Assembly: GCA_002633115.1 (NCBI GenBank)
Contig: NWBJ01000038.1
Location: forward strand, 56,729-90,330
Source: Muribaculaceae bacterium Zag1
GTDB taxonomy: Bacteria > Bacteroidota > Bacteroidia > Bacteroidales > Muribaculaceae
Reading direction: 5' to 3'
DNA length: 33,602 bases
Part shown: positions 8,848 to 12,982 of the stretch, piece after piece
Position numbering within the stretch: position 1 is the first letter of the stretch
Layout of the letters: each line of letters starts with the position of its first letter
The notes under the pieces: model-generated
The model's database searches: none
What the model was told of the DNA's origin: nothing
Seen by the model: only the letters and a program-made list of their open reading frames with translations
Made by a program: the position numbers and the translations under genes

Positions 8848-8855
8848 TATCTTTG
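8848..8855 (+). promoter_or_regulatory. -7 box of exported-protein copy 1
   Basis: TATCTTTG is embedded in a longer segment (GTTTCAAAACAAAG then ACTATCTTTG) that is repeated almost exactly before copy 2 at 11475-11482. It places transcription start near 8862, about 295 bases before the ORF. Confidence 0.6.
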
Positions 8856-8861
8856 CAATAA

Positions 8862-9150
8862 GATAGATGAAAAGGTGTCTTTTCGTCGATTTACTCTGTT
8901 TGGCAGAGGCCAACAGGAACTACATAATAAAAAAGAAAGCGTCTATGCTTATCTTGTCAACTGAAACCTGGAAAATTTCTACGCAAACAAGGACAAGCAT
9001 AGTAGAATCCACGCATATACGTATATGCGTGGGCTACTATACCCACATCTGTTTGCAAGGTTTTTCCAGGGCCACAGTTGAAGGCGTGGCATAGCGGTCC
9101 ACGCATTTCTTGTCTTTAAACATAAGCCACTTAGGACCGAAGGGCACTTT
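8862..9150 (+). promoter_or_regulatory. Candidate structured 5' leader RNA, copy 1
   Basis: This 387-base gap holds a non-coding leader that can fold as follows. An outer stem pairs 8871-8887 with 9135-9150 (about 15 pairs including wobbles, one C-C mismatch). Stem 1 is CTG-T-TTGGC (8896-8904), loop AGAG, GCCAACAG (8909-8916). Stem 2 pairs GC..CTATGC (8939-8948) with GCATAG and ACGC (9089-9104). A long hairpin at 8958-9080 is closed by CAACTG/CAGTTG. GCTTAT (8947-8952) can also pair with ATAAGC (9122-9127). Copy 2 at 11489-11673 preserves these elements, with a compensatory change in stem 1. No Rfam family was recognised. Function unknown. Confidence 0.5.
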
Positions 9151-9156
9151 AATTCA

Positions 9157-10401
9157 ATGAATAAAGCTATTTCATTCTTTAGGCTTGGCCTGATGATGCT
9201 GATGCTTCTATGTTGCTTTAGCATCAAGGCAGACGATGTCATTGTCATGCGCAATGGGGATGTGGTGAACGCCAAGGTCACTGAGATTACCCAAGACGAA
9301 ATCAAATACAAGAAGGCCTCCCGTCCAGATGGCCCTCTCTATACCGTCAACAAGTCAGACGTACTCGCTATCAACTACGAAGACGGTGAAAAGGAAACCT
9401 TCGAGGATTATGCCCCAGCCGCTAATGAAGAGCCTTCAGGGGTGACCTATCTCAAGCCCGAAAACTTATCGCCAGAGATAGCTCAATTGAATGCTCAAGC
9501 CATCCAAAAAATCAACAGAGAAGTACCAACTAAATGCGAGGATAAGGAAATAGGCAAAAAATCTAAGGATATCATTTATCGTTTCTTGGTAGATGAGAAT
9601 TCTATATTGCTCAATGAGGATTTAGCTATTACTCTTACTCCAGGGAAAAGGGTTAGATGGGGCAAAAAAGATATTGGAGAATTCAAAGAGTGCCATACAG
9701 CTTTGAGTCCTGCCTTGTTAGTGACTATATCCAACAAGTCTAATAGCACCATTTATCTCGACCTGGGTAACACCTTCTTTATACGTCAAGGGAAACCAAT
9801 ATGTTATTATGTGCCTTCCGTCACCACATCAGCCTCATCTAGCACTACTGGGGGTTCAGTAAATCTTGGTTCTGTGGCAGGGGCTATGGGAATTGGAGGA
9901 GGTGCGAAAGCATTAGCTAGCGGTGTCAATGTAGGGGGGAGTAATACCTCAACTACAGGGACAACTATTTTCTCTCAACGCATTATAGCAATCCCGGCCA
10001 ATACCTCTTATGAATTGGGGGCAGAATATATTCTTATGGATGAAGTTTCAAACGGCCAATATCCTCTTTGTAAGGGATTGTATTATAAAGTTGATGCCAT
10101 GTGGGTAGCACAATATAATGGATTCGCGTTGTTTAATTTCTTGGAAGGTAGCGAATCTGAGCCTATAACTTTTGATGAATCTTTCAGATATACTTCACAG
10201 GAATCCCCTCTTAAGGTAAGTTATTCTCTCACTTACTCCAAAACTGAAGACTTGAAACTTTCTAACACTTTTGAATTCTCTTTGTATTTGGGAGAATTAG
10301 TTGGTGGATACTATGATGGAGAGAATCTGCAAGATCTCCTTTTTTACGGGGGGAAAGCTCACACAAAAAAGAACGAGCCAGTTTTCCCGCGACCTAATTG
10401 A
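9157..10401 (+). CDS. Exported protein of unknown function, paralog copy 1 (intact)
   Basis: A 414-aa protein with a signal peptide (MNKAISFFRLG to about residue 25, predicted cleavage before DDVIV). Residues 26-80 (DVIVMRNGDVVNAKV, EIKYKKASRPDGP, YTVNKSDVLAINYEDG) resemble a short beta-rich domain often found at the N-terminus of exported Bacteroidales proteins. A central low-complexity Gly/Ser/Thr stretch (about 225-275, SVNLGSVAGAMGIGGG) separates it from a C-terminal domain. I know no function for it. It is paralogous to the frameshifted copy at 11681-12936. Strong promoter, long leader and a perfect 16-bp terminator hairpin suggest a single-gene transcript. Confidence 0.8.
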   Translation: MNKAISFFRLGLMMLMLLCCFSIKADDVIVMRNGDVVNAKVTEITQDEIKYKKASRPDGPLYTVNKSDVLAINYEDGEKETFEDYAPAANEEPSGVTYLKPENLSPEIAQLNAQAIQKINREVPTKCEDKEIGKKSKDIIYRFLVDENSILLNEDLAITLTPGKRVRWGKKDIGEFKECHTALSPALLVTISNKSNSTIYLDLGNTFFIRQGKPICYYVPSVTTSASSSTTGGSVNLGSVAGAMGIGGGAKALASGVNVGGSNTSTTGTTIFSQRIIAIPANTSYELGAEYILMDEVSNGQYPLCKGLYYKVDAMWVAQYNGFALFNFLEGSESEPITFDESFRYTSQESPLKVSYSLTYSKTEDLKLSNTFEFSLYLGELVGGYYDGENLQDLLFYGGKAHTKKNEPVFPRPN

Positions 10402-10402
10402 T

Positions 10403-10446
10403 AAGTAAGGTCGAGCGATCAAACGATCGCTCGACCTTACTTTCTA
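10403..10446 (+). terminator. Intrinsic terminator of copy 1
   Basis: GTAAGGTCGAGCGATC (10405-10420) pairs perfectly with 10425-10440 across loop AAAC, flanked by AA and TTT. Copy 2 has the same hairpin with a covarying stem pair (GAAAGG/CCTTTC in place of GTAAGG/CCTTAC). Confidence 0.85.
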
Positions 10447-10502
10447 TTACTTTTGGTTGAAAAAGGTGTGAAGAAATTCAAAAGCACCTTATCTAATCCC
10501 CT

Positions 10503-11258
10503 TTACCAGATCATATTGCGGTAGAGTAGATAGTTGTCGAGAGCATCTTGTTGCTGTCTAAGATTAGAGAAAGATTGACATGTATTACGGTATTGTGTAC
10601 CCGTATTCTCAGCTATCTTGATTACCTGTTGGAGAAATGGGAGGAGCGCTTGATTACTAACCGCACCAGCAGCGGTATAATTGTTGTACTGGTTGCATGT
10701 GATATTCCACATATTCTGTACTTCCTGTGGAGTCACATACCTATACTGCAATTTAGCATTTCCCTCATTACACCACTGGATGAAATTGTCCAGTATTCCT
10801 CGAGCCGTCTCGTAGCGCTGGGCTAAATCTGGAGAAGATTTACGCAATTCGTTGAAGAGACGTATCTCTTCATCGCACCAGCGGCATCCATATCGTAGGT
10901 TGCGGGCCACAGCATAAGGATTGGGGAGGCCTAGGTCATTGCCCTCATAAAAATCAGAACTATAGTCGCTCCCAGAAGAGGAACCTCCATTCTTGCGATA
11001 GCCAGTTCCACCGCAGTGCGAGCAATGCACATGAGTATGTCCCGAGTAGTGCCATTCTCCACATTCTGGACATTTTTTCTTTGTGTCTTTTCCGTAGGTA
11101 CTAACCGTTAGGTTCTTCACTACTTTGCCCGTACCTCCGCAGTAAGAGCAGTCGCCACGGGCCGACATCATAAGGGGCATAGCGGCTGCTACAACCATTG
11201 CTATGCCAGCAGTTAGAAGTTTATTCAACATTTTCTTCATAAAAGATTTACTTATCAT
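10503..11258 (-). CDS. Exported protein with DnaJ-type CxxCxGxG zinc-finger motifs
   Basis: A 251-aa protein. An N-terminal signal peptide is clear (basic MKKMLNKLL, then a hydrophobic core, ending near LMMSA); the start may be ATG 11258 or the internal ATG 11240, six codons later. Cysteine motifs CSYCGGTG (about 37-44), CPECGEWH (about 64-71) and CSHCGGTG (about 79-86) match DnaJ central-domain zinc fingers, but there is no J domain. The C-terminal half (about 110-251) is helical with Tyr/Gln/Asn. Similar zinc-finger-only exported proteins occur in Bacteroidales; role unknown. It lies on the opposite strand between the two paralogs and has its own -7 box. Confidence 0.8.
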   Translation of the reverse strand: MISKSFMKKMLNKLLTAGIAMVVAAAMPLMMSARGDCSYCGGTGKVVKNLTVSTYGKDTKKKCPECGEWHYSGHTHVHCSHCGGTGYRKNGGSSSGSDYSSDFYEGNDLGLPNPYAVARNLRYGCRWCDEEIRLFNELRKSSPDLAQRYETARGILDNFIQWCNEGNAKLQYRYVTPQEVQNMWNITCNQYNNYTAAGAVSNQALLPFLQQVIKIAENTGTQYRNTCQSFSNLRQQQDALDNYLLYRNMIW

Positions 11259-11390
11259 TGATGGAATAGTTGATAGAGCAAGTTTTTTGGTATGTTTAAA
11301 GACAATAAATAGTGAAAGTTGACGAGAGATTTTATAACTTGGTGGGTAAAGTCTTCAAGTTTATCTAAACAACGCCATCCCTTTCAAAAG

Positions 11391-11398
11391 CAAAGGTA
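11391..11398 (-). promoter_or_regulatory. -7 box for the zinc-finger protein gene
   Basis: TACCTTTG on the minus strand. Predicted start of transcription is about 120 bases upstream of the ORF. The rest of 11259-11474 shows no further feature I can support. Confidence 0.5.
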
Positions 11399-11474
11399 CG
11401 GAATTTTTTCTGAATTAAGGTAGATTAAACCTAAAAATTTCTCTGCGAAATTTCGCTGTTTCAAAACAAAGTAC

Positions 11475-11482
11475 TATCTTTG
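11475..11482 (+). promoter_or_regulatory. -7 box of exported-protein copy 2
   Basis: TATCTTTG in the same context as the copy 1 promoter at 8848-8855, diverging from the zinc-finger gene promoter. Confidence 0.6.
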
Positions 11483-11488
11483 TAATAA

Positions 11489-11673
11489 GATAGATGAAAA
11501 AGTGTCTTTTAGTCGATTACTCTGGATGGCAGAGGCCATCAGAACAACATACCAATAAGAAAAGCGTCTATGCTTATCTTGTCAACTGTAGCCTTCCGCA
11601 GTTGAAGGCGTGGCATAGCGGTCCACGCATTTCTTGTCTTTAAACATAAGCCACTTAGGACCGAAGGGCACTT
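11489..11673 (+). promoter_or_regulatory. Candidate structured 5' leader RNA, copy 2
   Basis: Shorter version of the copy 1 leader. The outer stem pairs about 11499-11514 with 11658-11673. Stem 1 is CTG-G-ATGGC (11522-11530), AGAG, GCCATCAG (11535-11542); relative to copy 1 a T-A pair becomes A-T, a compensatory change. GCGTCTATGC and its partners are conserved. The peripheral hairpin is closed by the same CAACTG (11583-11588) and CAGTTG (11599-11604), but holds only 10 bases instead of about 111. Confidence 0.5.
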
Positions 11674-11680
11674 CAATTCA

Positions 11681-12936
11681 ATGAATAAAGTTATTTCTTT
11701 TTTCAGATTTTACCTGATGATGCTGATGCTTCTATGTTGCTTTAGCATCAAGGCAGACGATGTCATTGTCATGCGCAATGGAGATGTGGTGAACGCCAAG
11801 GTCACTGAGATTACCCAAGACGAAATCAAATACAAGAAGGCCTCCCGCCCAGATGGCCCTCTCTATACCGTCAATAAGTCAGACGTACTCGCTATCAACT
11901 ACGAAGACGGTGAAAAGGAAACCTTCGAGGATTATGCCCCAGCCGCTAATGAAGAGCCTTTAGGGGTGACCTATCTCAAGCCAGAAAACTTATCGCCAGA
12001 GATAGCTCAATTGAATGCTCAAGCCATCCAAAAAATCAACAGAGAAATCCCTACTACCTGTAAAGAGAAGGAAATAGGGAAAAAATCGAAATGGCCTCTA
12101 TGTCGTTTCTTGGTCGATGAGAATTCGATACTTCTGAATGAAGATATAGAAATAACTCTTTCTACCGGCCAAAGATGGAGAAATAGTAAAAAGACATTGG
12201 TGAATTTGAAAAATGTCATCCAAGAATCAGCCCAGCATTGGCTGTAACCGTAACCAATAAGTCCAACGGTACTATTTATCTGGATCTTGGAAATACATTC
12301 TTTATCCGTCAAGGTAAATCAACGTGTTATTATGTCCCTTCAGTTACAACTTCAACCTCATCCAACACAACAGGTGGGTCTATCAATCTTGGCTCAGTAG
12401 CCGGAGCTCTCGGGGTAGGAGGAAGCGCAAAAGCTTTAGCCAATGGAGTAAATGTAGGAGGAAGCAATACCTCTACTACTGGAACCACTTTTTTCTCACA
12501 ACGTGTAATAGCCATCCCAGCTCACACTTCTTATGATTTAAGTGCTGAATATGTTTGGATGGATGAAGTTGAAACCGGACAATATCCCCTCATTAAAGGG
12601 ATGTATTATAAGATAGGAGGTAATAATGGATATTACAAAAATGGTTATGCACTATTCAATTTTCTTGAGGGAAGTGAATCGGAACCTATAATGAATGAGG
12701 AAACAATCAAATTCTCGTCACAAAATTCGCCATTTAAACTAGGATACTCTATAACCTATTCTAAAACAGAAGATTTTAAGAGTTCAAACACTTTTGATTT
12801 TTCTTTGTATTTGGGAGAATTGGTAGGAGGATATTATACGGGGATGGAAAAAGACGAAAATTTCACCGATATCCTTTATTATGGTGCGGGAGCTCACACG
12901 AAGAAGGACGAATCAGTTTTTTCCCGACCCAATTGA
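11681..12936 (+). pseudogene. Exported protein, paralog copy 2, frameshifted
   Basis: Paralog of 9157-10401. The first frame runs 11681-12247 and the rest continues in another frame to 12936. The break falls at an A-run: copy 1 has six A in the stretch before GATATTGG, whereas copy 2 has five (12188-12192) before GACATTGG. Adding one A restores KKDIGEF and the alignment to copy 1 through to the common C-terminus (NPVFPRPN-like end, SVFSRPN here). The first 350 bases are almost identical to copy 1, while later parts are much more diverged. It retains promoter, leader and terminator. It may be a recent pseudogene, a slippage-controlled gene or an assembly error. Confidence 0.8.
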
Positions 12937-12937
12937 T

Positions 12938-12982
12938 AAGAAAGGTCGAGCAATCTTTTGATCGCTCGACCTTTCTTCTTTT
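12938..12982 (+). terminator. Intrinsic terminator of copy 2
   Basis: The 18-base arm 12938-12955 pairs with 12960-12977 with one mismatch and is followed by a TTCTTTT tail. Homologous to the copy 1 terminator. Confidence 0.8.

Follow-up and report, generated by a model that had tools for sequence, protein, structure and literature searches.

Two paralogous genes in a 33,602-nucleotide stretch of the genome of Muribaculaceae bacterium Zag1 (contig NWBJ01000038.1, positions 56,729 to 90,330 of the forward strand; hereafter the window, to whose plus strand coordinates refer unless a locus or strand is given) are each preceded by a leader for which a multi-stem RNA fold with possible switching had been proposed. 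What is this leader, and what would it do for the genes that follow it? We find that the leader of the first gene (copy 1) belongs, with its core complete, to a large RNA family that is not catalogued in Rfam 15, and that it consists of a rod for which a competing hairpin exists, as the proposal of a switching leader had it. On balance, it is probably best explained as a riboswitch-like leader that would gate translation through a contact between a bulge of the rod and the loop of a further hairpin, P7, located beside the start codon. Control of translation in cis is the best inference that these sequence comparisons allow.

A rod between promoter and start codon

The comparison relies on a covariance model, R1, built from 26 aligned members, one of which is the core of copy 1. 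Searches with R1 gave 194 rows, which were reduced to 179 by dropping the opposite-strand matches, echoes of the self-complementary rod, together with other overlaps, and then to 171 distinct elements once identical ones were removed. The RNAalifold consensus is an unbranched rod made of the helices P1, P2, P3, P4 and P6, with a bulge on the 3' side between P2 and P1, and the consensus strands of P1 are AAGMRGCGU/ACGCUUNUU. A further helix, P5, appears when RNAalifold is applied under different settings to 27 sequences, and also when copy 1 is folded. In copy 1, the complete core occupies 8930-9112 (R1 match of 148.4 bits) and, folded in isolation, reaches -71.7 kcal/mol with a z score of -7.46. 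The 5' strands of P1 and P2 lie at 8933-8949, according to the isolated-core fold and the pair counts. The 5' strand of P3, TCAACTG, lies at 8957-8963 with its partner at 9075-9081, and that of P4 at 8967-8975 with its partner within 9061-9070; both helices are seen in the alignment fold, the pair counts, the covariation and the sequence itself. P5 pairs GCAAACA (8983-8989) with 9050-9056, and the rod is capped by the apical hairpin P6 (9000-9039), which was found by folding and is covered in part by the pair counts. The bulge, CGGTCC, is at 9095-9100. The whole leaders have z scores of -5.83 (copy 1) and -3.16 (copy 2), so that, for core and whole leaders alike, folding exceeds chance.

Among the 26 members, with P5 left out of the pairs counted, 97.2% of the cells are paired as against 85.5% in shuffled alignments, 98 cells have changed on both sides as against 33, and the covariation score is 0.407, while it is 0.183 after shuffling and at most 0.147 when slid. 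We also used a phylogeny-aware null, based on a tree and 40 simulated alignments in our own implementation rather than R-scape, on 157 of 165 sequences of 150-200 nucleotides (nt) retained by a 97% identity filter. Four pairs then reached E<0.05, all of them within the structure (three belong to P4 and one to P3), the remaining 41 of the 45 consensus pairs being below significance in an alignment that is poor in P5. Covariation among homologous leaders, the check that had been asked of this structure, was therefore found in P3 and P4, and, as detailed below, between the bulge and the P7 loop. The cells at paired sites (n=6815) comprise 5042 Watson-Crick pairs, 993 G-U, 223 A-C and 557 others. 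The large excess of G-U over A-C implies that selection acts on the RNA strand and not on a DNA palindrome. Comparison among the members shows both the rod and this selection at the RNA level.

The element also has a recurring place. A TA-N(1-3)-TTTG promoter box is found within 140 nt upstream of 163 of the 171 elements, the nearest one lying at -41 to -50 in 107 of them, and an open reading frame (ORF) starts within 140 nt downstream of 146, at 40-59 nt past the element in 87 of these. In the window, the -7 boxes that had been noticed before both leaders are indeed present (TATCTTTG at 8848-8855 and at 11475-11482, by direct reading of the sequence). The stretch between box and core folds better than its shuffled versions (mean of -8.9 versus -4.1 kcal/mol, n=107), which corresponds to a 5' hairpin that we call H0. 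This is the "stem 1" of the sequence-only reading, with its AGAG loop and its change from T-A to A-T between the copies, and it is present as described at 8896-8916 and 11522-11542. Related loci, inspected by eye, have at the same place a hairpin whose sequence is different. The motif ACAT occurs in the last 25 nt of the promoter-core stretch in 121 of the 171 elements, for 22 expected. The location of the element between promoter and start codon is thus upheld across the members compared, and a conserved structured domain in this position, presumably transcribed as a 5' untranslated region (UTR), is what one looks for in a riboswitch.

The bulge and the loop of P7

Over 5-8 bases, the bulge (CRGUCC and variants) matches the complement of a sequence located 20-35 nt past CACGC. 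In copy 1, this sequence is in the loop of P7, a hairpin at 9126-9145 that reads GCC-A-CTT [AGGACCG] AAG-GGC and in which the bases 9134-9139 (GGACCG) are complementary to the bulge at 9095-9100. From locus to locus, both sides change together: CGGTCC/GGACCG, CAGTTCC/GGAACTG, TAGTTCC/GGAACTA, GTAGTCC/GGACTAC, GTTGGCTC/GAGCCAAC and AGTTGCTC/GAGCAACT.

We tested this pairing in 163 members, after omission of the 8 of the 171 elements without a recognisable 3' motif. With a score of at least 13 at an offset of 20-35, it is present in 117 of them, compared with 4.1 when the letters are shuffled and 52.5 (maximum 58) when the downstream sequences are swapped between members, the latter value being high on account of the common bulge type. 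The mean score is 15.1 versus 11.8 after permutation (maximum 12.3 in 30 permutations), and with a single representative for each of the 57 bulge types it is 13.6 versus 10.6 (maximum 11.6 of 200 permutations). A set of 28 loci, 26 of them from other families, was fetched after the idea of the pairing had been formed: their mean is 15.0 versus 12.1, a value reached in none of 300 permutations, and 18 of the 28 pass singly. The pairing also occurs in 7 of 21 members from other orders, though R1 contains no P7. The loop partner sits in a hairpin whose stem letters vary by locus yet pair (stem score of 6.8 versus 5.3 with shuffled flanks, n=117), and the distance from the end of P7 to the ATG has a median of 16 nt (n=84), with a spacer that is 76% A/T. 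Comparison therefore shows the bulge-P7 pairing as well as the P7 hairpin.

Copy 1 precedes a gene (9157-10401) that, from its ORF and its homologues, encodes an exported-looking protein of 414 amino acids (aa). Copy 2 has a shortened core (11555-11636; 63.3 bits, and fold) in which P1, P2, P3 and the bulge (CGGTCC, 11619-11624) are present while P4-P6 are gone, and it has its own P7 at 11650-11669. R1 matches 183 nt in copy 1 versus 82 nt in copy 2, and the copies are 88% identical over 86 nt upstream and 96% identical over 300 nt from 9072. The leader of copy 2 is a deletion derivative of the full element, so the additional 100 or so nucleotides of copy 1, which had passed for an insert, are the P4-P6 arm that copy 2 has lost. 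The copy 2 gene (11681-12936) is split over two frames (11681-12247 and 12238-12936). The covariation evidence from the two copies, already said to be thin, is weak because of these two frames.

Several other features of this region can be mentioned. The frame of the copy 2 gene changes near an A run (12180-12247), through either a true frameshift or an assembly error. Related hairpins follow both paralogous genes (10403-10442 and 12938-12977), their arms being 90% complementary to each other, and the one after the copy 1 gene scored as terminator-like in a terminator scan. Between the copies, on the minus strand, a gene with CxxCxGxG-like motifs is found at 10503-11258; a CxxCxGxG protein is also encoded downstream of the element at locus L060 (loci outside the window are designated by such numbers).

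A family that seems to spread and is also retained

The leader had been described for two paralogues, and it turned out to belong to a family that is multi-copy and taxonomically wide. When the leader of copy 1 was searched with BLAST, the whole core, with the apparent insert, was recovered at 3 further loci of the host genome, and also in relatives. A pattern of the conserved 3' end then led to further loci in Bacteroidales, which are from Muribaculaceae, Paramuribaculum, Duncaniella, Barnesiella sp. An55, Candidatus Enterocola, and metagenome-assembled genomes labelled Prevotellaceae and Porphyromonadaceae. The pattern gave 41 matches in genome contigs, 18 of which lack the 5' core motif by regular expression. 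Among these 18, L048 does belong to the family, its 5' end being a variant, and the other 17 were taken as chance matches (L050, the one scanned with R1, gave no match); L013 and L015 were judged by eye to be chance matches in coding sequence.

Of the genomes sampled from the host's family, 299 of 397 gave an R1 match, as did 28 of 30 genera (E 0.001, with only 6 candidates scored per genome), and matches were obtained in 75 of 295 genomes and 51 of 184 genera of its order (E 1e-6), and in 19 of 395 genomes and 12 of 171 genera of the phylum (E 0.001, several being weak), the host being included in all three draws. On the expected strand, the host genome has 5 strong and 2 weak matches. One more match has E 0.025, and another is an opposite-strand echo. 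In 15 genomes, most of which were chosen for having many matches, we counted 99 matches, from 3 to 10 in each (E 1e-4). Its presence in 299 of 397 genomes would make this leader likely to be among the commoner regulatory RNAs of the family. Two weaker matches of the host genome, L076 (1501-1755) and L077 (1501-1745), have a longer rod of 245-255 nt, and that of L076 lies 51 nt upstream of a lipoprotein-like gene. In other orders of the class, the elements L116, L123, L125, L129, L130 and L132 (1501 to about 1667) have no P7 pairing, and no start codon is found as far downstream as is usual. Several of them precede a U-run; in these relatives, the rod may be a free-standing RNA.

The genes located downstream are diverse. 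Signal-peptide-like proteins are enriched among those of at least 150 aa (67 of 92, versus 73 of 255 background ORFs, p 3e-13, by a crude rule). Out of 113 complete downstream proteins, 94 were kept for Pfam after removing by hand 17 apparent near duplicates and 2 doubtful ORFs (L134, L234), and they fall into 50 families with at most 3 members each; the 25 families listed include SPFH, GYF, LysM, BspA-type leucine-rich repeats (LRR), HaeIII endonuclease and N6 methylase. With no single function among so many families, we rejected a ribosomal-protein or metabolic-operon leader.

Cores that are 95-98% identical are found before unrelated genes and between unrelated flanks, for example in L053/L060/L036 and in L137/L136. 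The position relative to promoter and ATG recurs. In the two largest groups of near-identical cores (14 elements), every member has a matching P7 partner, as have 4 of 4 members of group C and 3 of 3 of group E, but only 1 of 4 of group D (L137, L136, L110, L169). The element of L136 (8003-8177) lies on a Parabacteroides distasonis plasmid, where it precedes a DUF4433 gene. The region looks mobile, since it has integrase and PDDEXK genes; the element is a mere 14 nt away from the ATG, and there is no P7 at the usual place. The core of copy 1 was found by BLAST on 3 plasmids among 72,556 records, carried by Prevotella sp. oral taxon 299, P. distasonis and Phocaeicola massiliensis. We rejected a phage origin, as one member searched against 50,697 phage records gave no match and the single viral contig matched by the pattern lacks the 5' core motif.

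The element is also retained. In a family of secreted-looking proteins (22 loci in 12 genera), 16 loci have the leader less than about 100 nt before the gene, and 2 have it some 500 nt before. These 18 loci cover 10 genera; of the other 4, two are at a contig edge and two have no leader. Homologues of the window protein in 7 other genomes are mostly devoid of it, the 11 loci scanned having given one weak leader match. Near-identical cores before unrelated genes, taken together with retention at one gene family, lead us to think that the module seems to spread and yet to be held.

Competing folds, rival readings and known RNAs

The sequence-only reading had an outer stem bring the 5' and 3' ends of the leader together. 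This stem does appear in the energy minimum of both copies (in copy 1, 8868-8887 with about 9136-9156). As the main architecture it fared badly in the comparison: in 107 of 171 elements, a distance of only 41-50 nt separates the promoter box from the core, which leaves the 5' strand of the stem without a counterpart there, and the stem consumes P7 bases. We rejected it because H0 fills the promoter-core stretch and because these bases are used by the better-supported pairing; covariation testing covered the rod and the bulge-loop pairing, and no comparative support was found for the outer stem. In its stead, we propose the rod P1-P6 and the pairing of P7 with its bulge. A second long-range pairing, GCTTAT/ATAAGC, was also abandoned, since its 3' half is within the P7 stem, whose letters vary between loci, and its partner is not conserved.

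The third proposed pairing, GCGTGG/CCACGC, fared better. It forms a hairpin at 9084-9104 that is the rival of P1, P2 and the bulge, as seen in the counts and in the whole-leader fold, and it is probably a true alternative fold. Of the 163 members, 128 have a hairpin of at least 5 base pairs (bp) here, where shuffling of the 5' segment leads one to expect 15.6, and in 101 a run of at least 4 T follows in the next 12 nt. In CACGY, the last base varies with its hairpin partner: a T faces A (16 members) more often than G (4), and a C faces G (67) more often than A (28), with a Fisher p of 6e-5 on the 115 of 163 tabulated, uncorrected for relatedness, while the same test for the P1 partner gives p 0.04. 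A pairing of the P6 3' strand (GCGTGG) with the terminal CCACGC was considered as well, with a suggestive double change in L124 and an overall table that is not clean. The P7 pairing beside the ATG and the alternative hairpin each occur in most members examined, and would make a candidate expression-acting domain.

The mechanism that we favor follows the layout of the leader: promoter, H0, a rod of about 180 nt (P1-P6) with the P2/P1 bulge, P7, some 16 A/T-rich bases and the AUG. In a correctly folded rod, the bulge would kiss the P7 loop beside the landing site of the ribosome, and this contact, made or broken, would set how often the gene is translated. We propose, more cautiously, that the folding of the rod might answer a cell-wide signal, be it a small molecule, an ion or a protein, because the genes under control share no pathway; such sensing is plausible. 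Carried to its full extent, this reading describes a new riboswitch class for a global signal, present in several copies per genome in Bacteroidales and beyond, gating scattered accessory and exported-protein genes through the bulge-loop kiss, with a core that spreads horizontally as a plug-in module while each P7 is kept matched; we put this extended version forward tentatively, as a possibility.

A number of observations weigh against gating by the kiss. The pairing is missing from the expected place, at the threshold used, in 46 of 163 members, among them 14 of the 21 from other orders and some close ones (L110 and L169, and L136). It is also missing from 10 of the 28 later loci, and a few of these 28 resemble earlier members or each other. 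Two of the five pair measures of the rod are unremarkable, namely double-change pairs, equalled in 49 of 500 shuffles, and further pair types, equalled in 266. The shortened copy 2 retains the kissing parts without P4-P6. In the whole-leader energy minimum, copy 1 has the outer stem and the alternative hairpin, with P1, P2 and P7 absent, and copy 2 has the outer stem and P1-P3, again without P7, as computed by a folding program that cannot represent the bulge-loop contact. Finally, the 94 proteins analysed with Pfam share no common function, which would be unusual for a metabolite riboswitch.

The same alternative hairpin is the basis of a different reading, transcription attenuation, in which GCGTGG/CCACGC and the U-rich stretch would be an intrinsic terminator, and P1/P2 with the bulge-loop contact the antiterminator. 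The frequency of the hairpin and of the T run, its formation in the copy 1 minimum and its covariation with CACGY, stronger than that of P1, all fit attenuation, and the shuffled control made us raise our estimate of it slightly and lower that of translational gating. It is a serious rival, though somewhat unlikely in our judgment: the hairpin has 1-3 bp in the seven other-order members that retain P7 and the pairing, the T tract of the window is interrupted (ATTTCTTGTC), and P7 would be left without an obvious role of its own. The terminator scan flagged nothing at 9084-9115, a result that is uninformative since it allowed loops of up to 8 and this hairpin has a loop of 9.

The diversity of the targets, their enrichment in signal-peptide-like proteins and the near-identical cores before unrelated genes would also suit a constitutive 5' cap, a folded leader that protects the messenger RNA or boosts the translation of exported proteins and senses nothing. 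Conserved unpaired stretches and a long-range pairing exceed the needs of a stabilising stem, and most members have a competing fold, so we regard such a cap as unlikely. That cores up to 98% identical sit between unrelated flanks and genes, one of them in the integrase-bearing plasmid region of P. distasonis, recalls a mobile palindrome, either similar to a miniature inverted-repeat transposable element (MITE) or acting as a single-strand-DNA hairpin, that would be transcribed by chance. We consider this highly improbable in view of the G-U pairs far above A-C, the recurring place between promoter and ATG, the pairing with P7, which is outside the shared unit, the presence of the leader immediately before the gene in 16 of 22 loci of one family, and the lack of a phage match for the member searched. 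Translational gating by the bulge-P7 contact is thus the reading that we retain.

How does such a leader compare with the RNAs already described? That it belongs to no known Rfam family was borne out: in the window, no Rfam 15 family reaches the gathering score, and between 8700 and 11800, with E up to 5, the matches are implausible ones, to eukaryotic, plastid, sucC and Termite-leu families, none of which attains gathering. Twelve loci gave two tRNAs outside the element and nothing else, and 18 further loci, with E up to 0.5, one below-gathering match to a microRNA family, outside the element (L076 1255-1304). The leader RNA is not described in the titles and abstracts, supplements not being covered, among the matches listed from the open literature in PubMed Central (PMC). 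In their main text, PMC11109978 and PMC8632094 contain none of the five Bacteroidetes names sought. Flavo-1 (RF01705), Bacteroidales-1 (RF01693) and the other Bacteroidetes motifs listed in PMC2864571 are likewise structured RNAs from this phylum. Where such a motif has an Rfam entry, it has no match in the window or in 30 other loci, and two that are tabulated there without such an entry, 'GUCCY-hairpin' and 'Bacteroides-2', are outside this comparison. PMC8040213, in the portion of its text consulted, reports 3161 candidate structured RNAs from human microbiomes, some of them from Bacteroidetes, with palindromic candidates that include the 109-bp HMP2_4078 near integrase domains. That portion describes no leader of the bulge-P7 kind, so that our family is set apart from these candidates by description only and may overlap with them.

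Type III toxin-antitoxin RNAs of the ToxI kind are tandem-repeat RNAs directly before a ToxN-like gene. We rejected this possibility, as there is here a single rod without repeat, and the 25 Pfam families listed, out of 50, include none that is ToxN-like. Bacteroidota are abundant in the gut, and, to our knowledge, their known cis-regulatory RNAs are few and their initiation is not driven by Shine-Dalgarno sequences. The leader may be an undescribed gene switch, and its family would offer a ready test of how, where there is no Shine-Dalgarno sequence, expression is controlled by a structure adjacent to the AUG. In being found in several copies per genome, before functionally scattered and often envelope-related genes, it recalls the c-di-GMP and c-di-AMP riboswitches, from which it differs by the lack of any sequence or structure match in the Rfam scans. 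In its layout it resembles the cobalamin riboswitch, where a structured domain in the 5' UTR uses loop pairing to contact a hairpin close to the site at which translation begins. The present leader departs from it in that no Rfam 15 riboswitch matched on the loci scanned and the Pfam families listed downstream have no evident link to B12, and in that the core-side partner of the contact is here a bulge beside the closing helix of an unbranched rod.

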